This document shows, piece by piece, positions 7,977 through 15,218 of a DNA stretch of 64,000 bases. The notes beneath the pieces are model-generated. The model had not been told where the DNA came from. It saw only the letters and a program-made list of their open reading frames with translations, and made no database searches. Source of the stretch: Janibacter sp. HTCC2649 (GTDB lineage: Bacteria; Actinomycetota; Actinomycetes; Actinomycetales; Dermatophilaceae); NCBI RefSeq assembly GCF_000152705.1, contig NZ_CH672413.1, positions 3,166,139 to 3,230,138 of the forward strand, read 5' to 3'. The stretch's first letter is position 1; each line of letters opens with the position of its first letter. A program made the position numbers and the translations under genes.

Positions 7977-7999
7977 GGTATGCCGCGGCACGGCATACC
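7977..7999. promoter_or_regulatory. Inverted octamer pair just before the 8008 start codon
   Basis: GGTATGCCG (7977-7985) and CGGCATACC (7991-7999) form a perfect 9-base inverted repeat with a 5-base loop. The pair lies between the two divergent SGNH hydrolase genes and ends 8 bases before the GTG at 8008. A TACCGT hexamer at 7996-8001 overlaps the right arm and has the spacing of a -10 box for a leaderless transcript. It could therefore act as an operator or hairpin, or simply be a paired copy of the dispersed octamer. Confidence 0.6.
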
Positions 8000-13179: not shown

Positions 13180-14124
13180 ATGAATCTCGCCTCCACGCTG
13201 CGCGTCCGCACCCGCCGGGTCGCGCTCGTTGCGGTCACCGCAGCCTCGGTCGTCACCCTCGGCGCCTCGGTCGCCGCGGCGGCTCCGTCGCCCACGCCCA
13301 AGGCCACCGCTCACCACACGACCAAGCAGGGCCCCCTCGGCACCCTCACCGCGGTGCCGTCCGCCGGTGCGCGCACCTCGGACGTCGCCATCCCGACGAC
13401 CTGCGCCGGCATCGTCCACCGCACGGTGAACGGGAACCTCGACCGCTACATCTACCGCGGTGAGCGGTTCACCCGCGTTCCCCTGGGCACCCTGTCGTTC
13501 GACGGTGTCGTCCAGACCCCGAAGACCCTGGCCCTCGCGGTGCAGACCGAGGAGTTCGACGTCTTCTTCGCGATCCTCAACGACGGGTCGCTCTGGCGCG
13601 TCACCGGCGACAACAGTGGCCTCCACTCCGAGCAGCTGAGCGCGCGTGGCTGGGGCGGGGTCCGCCACATCACGGCGTCCCCGACCGGGACCCGTCTCTA
13701 CGCCCTCACGAACGACGGCGGCCTCTACCGTTACGCCATCACGTCGGCTCTCGGCATCAAGAGCATGGGTGCACTCGCGACCTCCGGCTGGGGCGCCGTG
13801 AAGTTCCTCAGCCCGCTTCCCGCGGACAACACCTATGACGCGTTCGTCGGAGTCATCTCCACCACCGGTGGCGTCAACGAGTACCTCACCGACCGCGCCG
13901 CCGGCACGGTCTCGAGCACACGCCTCTTCGCCTCCGGCTGGGGCACGATGCGTCACCTCTCCGTCGGCAGCTGCTCTGACTCGCTGGCCGTCCCGATCAT
14001 CGGTTTCAACTCCAGCAACAACGCCTACGCCTACTACGACACCAACGTCTTCAACAGCAGCGGTGCTGACTGGCGCAGCGCCGGCCAGGTCGGAAGCGGC
14101 TTCAGCGGTCTGCTCAGCGACTGA
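13180..14124 (+). CDS. Secreted GWG-repeat protein A (tachylectin/propeller-like)
   Basis: This 314-residue exported protein has a signal peptide over residues 1-34 (Arg-rich start, then VALVAVTAASVVTLGASVAAAA). The mature part has about five repeats of roughly 45-50 residues. In each, a blade-like strand pair ends in a G-W-G turn: RGWGGVRHITA, SGWGAVKFLSP, SGWGTMRHLSV. Alternating LYALTNDGGLYRY and LWRVTG strands resemble a tachylectin-2-like beta-propeller, a lectin-type fold. AGGGGAA precedes the ATG at 13180; an ATG at 13081 is upstream of that site and unlikely. A paralog follows directly. Sugar or cell-surface binding is inference only. Confidence 0.75.
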   Translation: MNLASTLRVRTRRVALVAVTAASVVTLGASVAAAAPSPTPKATAHHTTKQGPLGTLTAVPSAGARTSDVAIPTTCAGIVHRTVNGNLDRYIYRGERFTRVPLGTLSFDGVVQTPKTLALAVQTEEFDVFFAILNDGSLWRVTGDNSGLHSEQLSARGWGGVRHITASPTGTRLYALTNDGGLYRYAITSALGIKSMGALATSGWGAVKFLSPLPADNTYDAFVGVISTTGGVNEYLTDRAAGTVSSTRLFASGWGTMRHLSVGSCSDSLAVPIIGFNSSNNAYAYYDTNVFNSSGADWRSAGQVGSGFSGLLSD

Positions 14125-14142
14125 CCGATCGACCTGACCCAC

Positions 14143-14200
14143 CAACAGGGCGGGGTATGCCGTGAACGACTTCACGGCATACCCCGCCTGTTGTTTTCTT
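14143..14200 (+). terminator. Rho-independent terminator built from an inverted octamer pair
   Basis: The left arm 14143-14166 and right arm 14171-14193 pair almost perfectly (23 pairs, one bulged G) around the four-base loop CGAC, followed by TTGTTTTCTTTC. GTATGCCG (14155-14162) and its complement (14175-14182) form the middle of the stem. This is the same arrangement known for paired DNA uptake sequences in Neisseria terminators. It ends transcription of the first GWG-repeat gene. Confidence 0.9.
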
Positions 14201-14309
14201 TCGAAAGTTTCCGGGTCACCGAGACAACCTTGCGGGCTCCGTCCGCGTAGTGATGGGTGTCAGCTCACACCGTCGTCCGGGGGACGACTCACTCAGGGGG
14301 TTCCACATC

Positions 14310-15218
14310 ATGTCCATCGCCACCACCGTTCGCCGCTCCAGCCGGCGACTCGGTCTCACTCTTGTCGCCGTCGCGTCAGTCACCGGTGGGGCGGTTTTCG
14401 CCGCAACTCCATCCACGGCGGGGACTGGCTCGACAGCAGTGACCGCACCATCCTTGGCCGCATCGGCCCTGCCTCTGCCGGGAGACTGCAATGCAGCATT
14501 CCAGGAGGCCACCGGTGAAGGAACGTTGTCGACAGTCACGCGGGTCCCTCGCGGATTGTCCCGAAGCGTCATGTACGAGATGCCCGACTACGGCAACGGC
14601 CCGGAGCGACCCAAGGCGATGGCTGGGGTCGGGACCTCCGGAGGGCCCATTCTCATCAGCGTCCGAGAGGACGGCACGCTCTGGTCGCACAGACCATTCA
14701 AGACGGGTAAGCCCGTGCAGGTGGGCAAGGGCTGGGGTGCCATCCGGCAGATGACCGGTTTTGCCACCGGGAAGGTCTATGCACTCACCACTTATGGCGG
14801 CCTGGTGCGCTACGACGTCCGGCTCAGCCGGGCGGGGAACGCCGTCGTGACCAGTGCGGGTGCCGTCAGTGGACGTGGATGGAACGGGATCGCGTTCCTC
14901 ACGGCGGTTGAGACGACGAGGCAGGCCGAGGTCCTCATGGGTGTCAGCACCAGCTCTGGTGAGCTCATGGAGTACTGGGTCAACCTGGGTGGGCTTGGCG
15001 CGCGCGGATATGCCCTCCGACCGAGCTGGGGTGGCATGAAGCACGTGTCCGTCGGGGGGTGCCGGACGTCCGGGGCGCGGACCATCCTCGGCGTGCACGA
15101 GAACGGCAACGTCTACTCGTACGTCGACCAGGTGAACGACAGGTCGGGCGCGGACATCAAGGGCTACGGCGTCCTGTCCGAAGGGTTCGCCGCGCCGACT
15201 TCGCTGTACTCCGACTGA
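14310..15218 (+). CDS. Secreted GWG-repeat protein B, paralog of the preceding gene
   Basis: This 302-residue exported protein is similar in layout to the 13180-14124 product. It has a signal peptide over about residues 1-34 (RRLGLTLVAVASVTGGAVFAA), then repeats with the turns KGWGAIRQMTG, RGWNGIAFLTA and PSWGGMKHVSVGGC, and strands such as VYALTTYGGLVRYD. The same C-terminal pattern, a Cys after the last W-G block and a final S-G-A-D segment ending YSD, is shared by both proteins. CAGGGGG lies before ATG 14310. The two are separated by a strong terminator, so they are likely separate transcription units from tandem duplication. Function unknown. Confidence 0.75.
   Translation: MSIATTVRRSSRRLGLTLVAVASVTGGAVFAATPSTAGTGSTAVTAPSLAASALPLPGDCNAAFQEATGEGTLSTVTRVPRGLSRSVMYEMPDYGNGPERPKAMAGVGTSGGPILISVREDGTLWSHRPFKTGKPVQVGKGWGAIRQMTGFATGKVYALTTYGGLVRYDVRLSRAGNAVVTSAGAVSGRGWNGIAFLTAVETTRQAEVLMGVSTSSGELMEYWVNLGGLGARGYALRPSWGGMKHVSVGGCRTSGARTILGVHENGNVYSYVDQVNDRSGADIKGYGVLSEGFAAPTSLYSD

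Follow-up and report, generated by a model that had tools for sequence, protein, structure and literature searches.

Introduction

Abundant genomic words are used for self-specific DNA uptake by the Neisseriaceae and the Pasteurellaceae, and pairs of these words facing one another act as terminators (PMC1852404, PMC13020248). An earlier note on the DNA studied here had called paired uptake words in terminators a known trait of Neisseria, in agreement with the literature (PMC1852404). The DNA uptake sequence (DUS) of the Neisseriaceae comes in dialects that differ by one base from clade to clade; two dialects can share one genome, and some members of the family lack the word (Frye et al.; PMC3630211). 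According to the literature that we searched, such words are known in these two Gram-negative families only (PMC12616744, PMC5031613), and a candidate from Actinomycetota would therefore be new to the phylum. Within the open-licence literature we found no report of the octamer discussed below, GTATGCCG, or of any actinobacterial or Gram-positive uptake sequence. Transformation itself has been described for the actinobacterium Micrococcus luteus, where it requires ComEC and Flp/Tad pili (PMC4322843).

Here, we analyse a hairpin located at positions 14143-14193 of a 64,000-nucleotide stretch of DNA (the window), whose proteins find their best matches, of up to 99%, in loci of Knoellia. The genus of the window is therefore probably Knoellia (GTDB family Dermatophilaceae). 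We consider it probable that the feature is a 3'-end hairpin, likely an intrinsic terminator, in which two copies of a genome-wide word face each other, and that this word most likely serves as a DNA uptake sequence; uptake and termination are both inferred.

Results

A hairpin with paired octamers follows a tachylectin-like gene

The features of the locus, together with the second octamer pair of the window, are as follows.

7978 to 7998, no strand assigned: a second inverted pair of octamers, spaced by 5 nt and situated between divergent genes rather than at the end of a gene
13180 to 14124, + strand: upstream gene, a secreted tachylectin-like beta-propeller of 314 amino acids with 'GWG repeats' (gene call; PF14517 Tachylectin, E = 3.9e-8)
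14143 to 14166, + strand: 5' arm of the 23-pair stem, with a bulged G at 14150 (RNA fold)
14155 to 14162, + strand: octamer copy 1, GTATGCCG, within the 5' arm (sequence; genome-wide over-representation)
14167 to 14170, + strand: loop CGAC (RNA fold)
14171 to 14193, + strand: 3' arm of the stem (RNA fold; terminator scan match 14148-14189)
14175 to 14182, - strand: octamer copy 2 within the 3' arm, reading CGGCATAC on the + strand (sequence)
14194 to 14202, + strand: T-rich tail TTTTCTTTC (sequence)
14310 to 15218, + strand: downstream gene, a second and weaker tachylectin-like paralogue (ATG at 14310; PF14517 E = 3e-5, under the family cut-off)

The earlier note had placed a near-perfect stem of 23 pairs, with inverted octamers at its centre and a T-rich stretch behind it, after the first GWG-repeat gene, and each of these statements is borne out. 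The hairpin starts 18 nt past the stop codon of the upstream gene, its 23 pairs (7 + 16, interrupted by the bulged G) are reproduced exactly by the RNA fold, and seven of the nine bases read directly 3' of the stem are T. Folding of positions 14125-14215 gives -46.5 kcal/mol compared with a shuffle mean of -24.9 (z = -7.0), a stability that none of 200 shuffles reached, and a consensus terminator scan also calls the hairpin on the + strand. Thus, a stable GC-rich hairpin near a stop codon and a T-rich tract behind it meet the sequence criteria of an intrinsic terminator, and we regard the feature at 14143-14202 as a 3'-end hairpin that is very probably a terminator-type element. That it stops transcription is inferred without transcription data; if it does, it would insulate the downstream tachylectin-like gene, which is read in the same direction, from the upstream one. 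The pair at 7978-7998 precedes a predicted start codon by 9 nt, a position in which a terminator would make no obvious sense.

Inverted octamer pairs concentrate at gene ends

Head-to-head pairs of the form GTATGCCG-N(0-30)-CGGCATAC occur 78 times in the genome, compared with about 16 expected from the density of sites; the opposite arrangement (not head-to-head) is found 42 times vs about 16 expected, and pairs of the reversed pattern are absent genome-wide. Gene context was assigned with a home-made gene caller in an unselected 623-kb sample and in regions picked around pairs. Within the unselected sample, 11 of 16 inverted pairs lie no more than 60 nt past a stop codon, compared with 24 of 434 single copies (odds ratio 38, p = 4e-10); this was the check that the earlier note had proposed for its suggestion that the word can serve in transcription ending, and the suggestion gains support from it, with termination remaining an inference. 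Among all pairs examined, 42 of 54 fall within 60 nt downstream of a stop, mostly with 18-36 nt between stop and octamer, and their stems reach beyond the octamers with gene-specific sequence. Viewed from the hairpins, the octamer is present in 15 of the 59 strong hairpins that follow candidate transcript ends, i.e. about a quarter, and always in both arms (a few convergent hairpins were counted from both sides). None of the intragenic control regions gave a hairpin as strong as those at 3' ends.

Several hairpins at gene ends have further features in common. Many octamer hairpins of the same genome (e.g. L001:7725, L008:11650, and L195:14601) share the interior CCGCTCACCAGAGCGG or TGCTCACC..GGTGAGCA, which constitutes a recurrent inner stem. 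Other recurrent, long 3' hairpins without the octamer follow several genes, for example in L013, and read CGACTTCGTGCCC..GGACGGC/GGACAAC..GAGCGCCAGCGAG..

Comparison between genomes provides a second view of the element. Within the genus, G017 is the only further genome with a match over the length of the upstream gene, and a homologue search with the upstream protein over genome contigs gave no match. Directly after the orthologous stop codon, G017 carries a hairpin of 17 pairs, GAGCC-GGTATGCCG-TGG-TGCG-CCA-CGGCATACC-GGCTC, which retains the same two octamers and has no T-run, and in which most outer and inner stem bases differ from those of the window. At another gene, L009_16841, the corresponding position carries octamer-pair hairpins with different stems in Knoellia sinensis, K. 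subterranea, Terrabacter sp. Root85, and Tetrasphaera australiensis; this cross-genus example is biased, given that the loci had been fetched for containing pairs.

The absent T-run in G017 raises the possibility that the hairpins act on transcript stability, as a 3' cap against exonucleases or as ends remaining from Rho-dependent termination, rather than as intrinsic terminators. T-tails are indeed modest in most octamer hairpins, the majority of which lack a run of T. On average, however, 2.9 T are found in the 9 nt after the stem of octamer hairpins, compared with 2.1 for other hairpins and 1.55 for the background, and the hairpin at 14143-14193, with its tail of seven T in nine, is called by the terminator scan. 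We therefore judge a pure stability element to be unlikely, though by no means negligible, and continue to favour termination. The shared interior CCGCTCACCAGAGCGG could alternatively suggest that the hairpins are copies of a mobile, REP- or MITE-like repeat inserting after genes. This explanation fails on two counts: about 75% of the copies of the word are single octamers in genes without a conserved flank, and in orthologous hairpins the octamers persist and the remaining stem turns over around them, which is the reverse of what a transposed unit would leave behind. We reject it as highly improbable.

A word found on both strands and evenly spread

An initial count in the window concerned GGTATGCC, with 20 copies vs 0.47 expected, which proved to be only one context of the true core, GTATGCCG. 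The core is present 52 times in the window (28 + 24). In a 464-kb sample from the same genome, no other 8-mer is as strongly over-represented (355 copies vs 8.8), with 40 times the expectation of an order-2 Markov model. With a background model in which GTATGCCG was masked, the 623-kb sample contains 482 copies vs 7.5 expected, or about 64-fold. The complete genome of 4.24 Mb harbours 2,982 copies (704/Mb), compared with 59 of the reversed control word. The 24 one-mismatch neighbours show no clear excess in the 623 kb (396 vs 365 expected); Neisseria genomes contain many one-mismatch neighbours of their uptake word.

Copies are divided almost equally between the strands (1,486 + and 1,496 -), and the balance holds in all 17 chromosome bins with no trend along the chromosome. 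These numbers bear on whether the word could be a replication or recombination signal of the Chi or FtsK-orienting (KOPS) type, as a short, very abundant, and non-palindromic octamer might suggest. Signals of this kind are strand-biased by replication arm, whereas the copies described here are split evenly between the strands throughout the chromosome; nor do Chi and KOPS form inverted pairs after stop codons. The strand balance in all 17 bins leads us to discard this possibility, which we hold to be very improbable.

The spacing of the word is more even than chance. Counts in 5-kb bins have a variance-to-mean ratio of 0.51, below that of all 2,000 uniform simulations and of all 39 control words, and none of 123 bins is empty. 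With a frequency of roughly one copy per 1.3-1.4 kb, about 75% of copies are located inside genes, and the density is approximately three times higher between genes (1.7-2.2 per kb) than within them (0.65 per kb). Single genic copies are bare octamers without a conserved flank.

The complete octamer overrides codon preference

Genic copies are mainly read as ..G TAT GCC G.. (Tyr-Ala) or ..CG GCA TAC (Ala-Tyr). Given that most copies are genic and occupy these two preferred frames, one might suppose that the word merely reflects codon or oligonucleotide bias at high GC content. TAT is, however, the minority tyrosine codon overall (628 vs 2,580 for TAC), and it prevails by 165 to 14 in the context G-Tyr-GCC-G, from which the full octamer results; the same context without the final G has TAT once and TAC 23 times. 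Likewise, GCA precedes TAC in 110 cases when CG stands before it and in 3 cases otherwise. Both rare codons are favoured solely where a complete octamer is formed, which argues for selection or drive and not codon bias. Moreover, codon bias would have to account for a 64-fold excess, for an intergenic density three times the genic one, and for the absence of enrichment from 19 sister families. The context tests for TAT/TAC and GCA rule out such an artefact, to which we attach practically no credence.

Genes with the strongest codon bias and those with the lowest GC content contain the word least often: the density is 0.17 per kb in the most biased tenth of genes (about 4 times lower) and 0.10 per kb in the tenth with the lowest GC content (about 6 times lower). 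The low densities fit avoidance of constrained genes, and recent imports are possibly poor in the word.

Restriction to one family and divergence into dialects

Setting the threshold at a minimum of 350 copies, about 84 of 150 family genomes (53 genera) are rich in GTATGCCG, and the remainder have far fewer copies; outside the family, no enrichment is seen in any of 273 genomes, which represent 19 further families of the order. All nine genomes of the window's genus are rich (1,971-3,277 copies). Richness can switch within a genus, e.g. in g25 (G070 with 19, G025 with 1,062, and G097 with 3,681 copies) and in g35 (G126 with 37 vs G117 with 1,660). Among the matches listed, pairs were found in Knoellia, Intrasporangium, Terrabacter, Pedococcus, Phycicoccus, Humibacillus, Tetrasphaera, and relatives; the pattern scan used for this purpose also returns chance matches in unrelated phyla.

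A one-base dialect, GGATGCCG, reaches 3,949 copies in G026 (L242-L245), a genome poor in GTATGCCG, and is also found in genera g17 and g44 (G016 with 3,816 and G104 with 4,480 copies). At 2,100-4,500 copies per genome, it replaces or accompanies GTATGCCG in G026, G016, G065, G044, G080, G104, and G119, i.e. in the dialect genera g17, g26, and g44, with G044 carrying both words. The dialect forms pairs of its own: 69 in G026, 52 in G016, and 73 in G104, vs 0, 1, and 0 in the GTATGCCG genomes G000, G122, and G061. About half of the few dialect pairs that we inspected are intergenic, several of them 18-50 nt after stop codons.

Pairing of GTATGCCG is itself variable. The ratio of observed to expected pairs is 0.5-1.6 in the word-rich genera g5, g18, and g47 (no clear excess), 3-5 in the window's genus, and 8-14 in g16, g43, g50, and g52. 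This variation by genus suggests that the word is primary and that its use in hairpins is a secondary, lineage-dependent habit. By count, pairing is strongest in G043 (g43), with 209 inverted GTATGCCG pairs in 3.6 Mb, 10 times the expectation.

Other words are prominent in some of the genomes. In G126 (L238-L241), where GTATGCCG is down to 37 copies and whose genus has GTATGCCG-rich members, GTAGACC/GGTCTAC occurs 52 times in 80 kb vs 5.8 expected; it shows a clear frame preference and could be a further dialect or unrelated. In G070 (L226-L229), which has lost GTATGCCG though its genus has the word, GTACGGCGT/ACGCCGTAC is found 18 times vs 1.5 in 80 kb. CGAAGGGGG appears 31 times vs 1.9 in 80 kb of G145 (L230-L233), in all reading frames and hardly ever between genes, and resembles an FtsK-orienting or Chi-like signal more closely than an uptake word.

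Competence genes and the search for a reader

The genome contains adjacent comEA (SLBB + HHH_3) and comEC genes as well as a DUF4244 gene, which we take to encode the actinobacterial Flp-type pilin. These genes are present in nearly all genomes, word-rich and word-poor alike, and some word-poor genomes with competence genes carry another dialect. ComEC, ComEA, and the Flp pilin consequently fail to discriminate rich from poor genomes, and their presence in word-poor genomes neither proves nor excludes a role of the word in uptake. PilM, a marker of type IVa pili, is absent from the genome, which makes a type IVa pilin of the ComP type an unlikely reader there; with PilM in only 5 of 150 family genomes, a type IVa pilus is ruled out as the common reader of the word.

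Since competence genes do not separate rich from poor genomes and no receptor has been identified (none was sought beyond PilM), the word might instead be the site of a chromosomal DNA-binding protein, such as a nucleoid organiser or another genome-wide factor, with pairs reused as terminators and no role in uptake. Even spacing at about one copy per 1.3-1.4 kb would suit an organising site. On the other hand, some 700 exact copies per Mb, including changes in protein-coding sequence, exceed what known organising sites need, and genus-level dialects together with loss from single species reproduce the pattern of DUS dialects in the Neisseriaceae (PMC3630211). We consider such a site improbable, while keeping it in play, and prefer to read the octamer as an uptake sequence.

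Discussion

The earlier note had taken the hairpin as strengthening the idea of an uptake sequence. The genomic signature of DUS and USS is present, in that GTATGCCG meets their criteria of abundance, strand balance and spread, inverted pairs at gene ends, and family restriction with dialects; the idea is upheld to this extent, and uptake as such is inferred. Our sequence data establish that the word is abundant, occurs on both strands with even spacing, overrides codon preference, and is restricted to the family. Comparison of the genomes, again a matter of sequence alone, likewise establishes the dialect GGATGCCG, the 3' placement of pairs, and the conservation of octamer pairs amid turnover of the stems. 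Three further steps are inferences drawn from these observations: a stop of transcription at the hairpin, a gain in DNA uptake through the word, and recognition of the word by a surface receptor.

We propose that GTATGCCG may be a mark of self that is favoured when the cell takes up DNA in natural transformation. Biased uptake followed by recombination could have led to its accumulation across the GTDB Dermatophilaceae, where it would have diverged into the dialects of individual genera. A surface receptor, for which ComEA or a component of the Flp/Tad pilus would be candidates, is inferred to read the word. Given how frequent both the word and its complement are, facing copies arise easily, and they might be kept where the resulting stem is useful after a stop codon. 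Overall, we lean towards an undescribed self-specific uptake system, the third independent one and the first in a Gram-positive lineage, which employs an 8-base word of one family in genus dialects, reuses it in terminators, and has a reader other than a type IVa pilin here.

If true, a family-wide word with dialects and use in terminators would make Actinomycetota a third, convergent case with a different cell envelope, and how uptake specificity can work in the absence of an outer membrane and of type IVa pili could then be put to the test. It would also predict naturally transformable soil actinobacteria and offer a simple tag for engineering them. The independent recurrence of terminators made from paired words would show that any abundant word will, as a general side effect, come to be reused in this way.

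As in the M. luteus system, comEA, comEC, and a gene for a Flp-type pilin of the actinobacterial kind are present in the genome studied here, whereas an uptake sequence goes unmentioned in the M. luteus paper (PMC4322843). The likeness to the DUS of the Neisseriaceae is more extensive: the copies number in the thousands and lie on both strands, inverted pairs of the '+-' type are concentrated after genes (PMC3630211, PMC1852404), and the word is confined to one family, with one-base dialects, sometimes two per genome, and with some genera that lack it (PMC3630211). GTATGCCGT and the 12-mer DUS also have the letters ATGCCGT in common. In contrast to DUS, GTATGCCG lacks the CTG core that is essential to all DUS dialects, provides no A/T-rich extended motif to give a T-tail, and belongs to Actinomycetota, with a single membrane and, in this genome, no type IVa pilus. 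The USS of the Pasteurellaceae is a different word, has flanking A/T tracts that are missing here, and is found in another phylum with another envelope. The two are nevertheless alike in frequency, with 704 copies per Mb here and 500-800 per Mb for Hin-USS (PMC12616744), and 16-29% of terminator-bearing gene ends carry the word in the Pasteurellaceae (PMC1852404) vs about 25% of the strong 3' hairpins in the genome described here.
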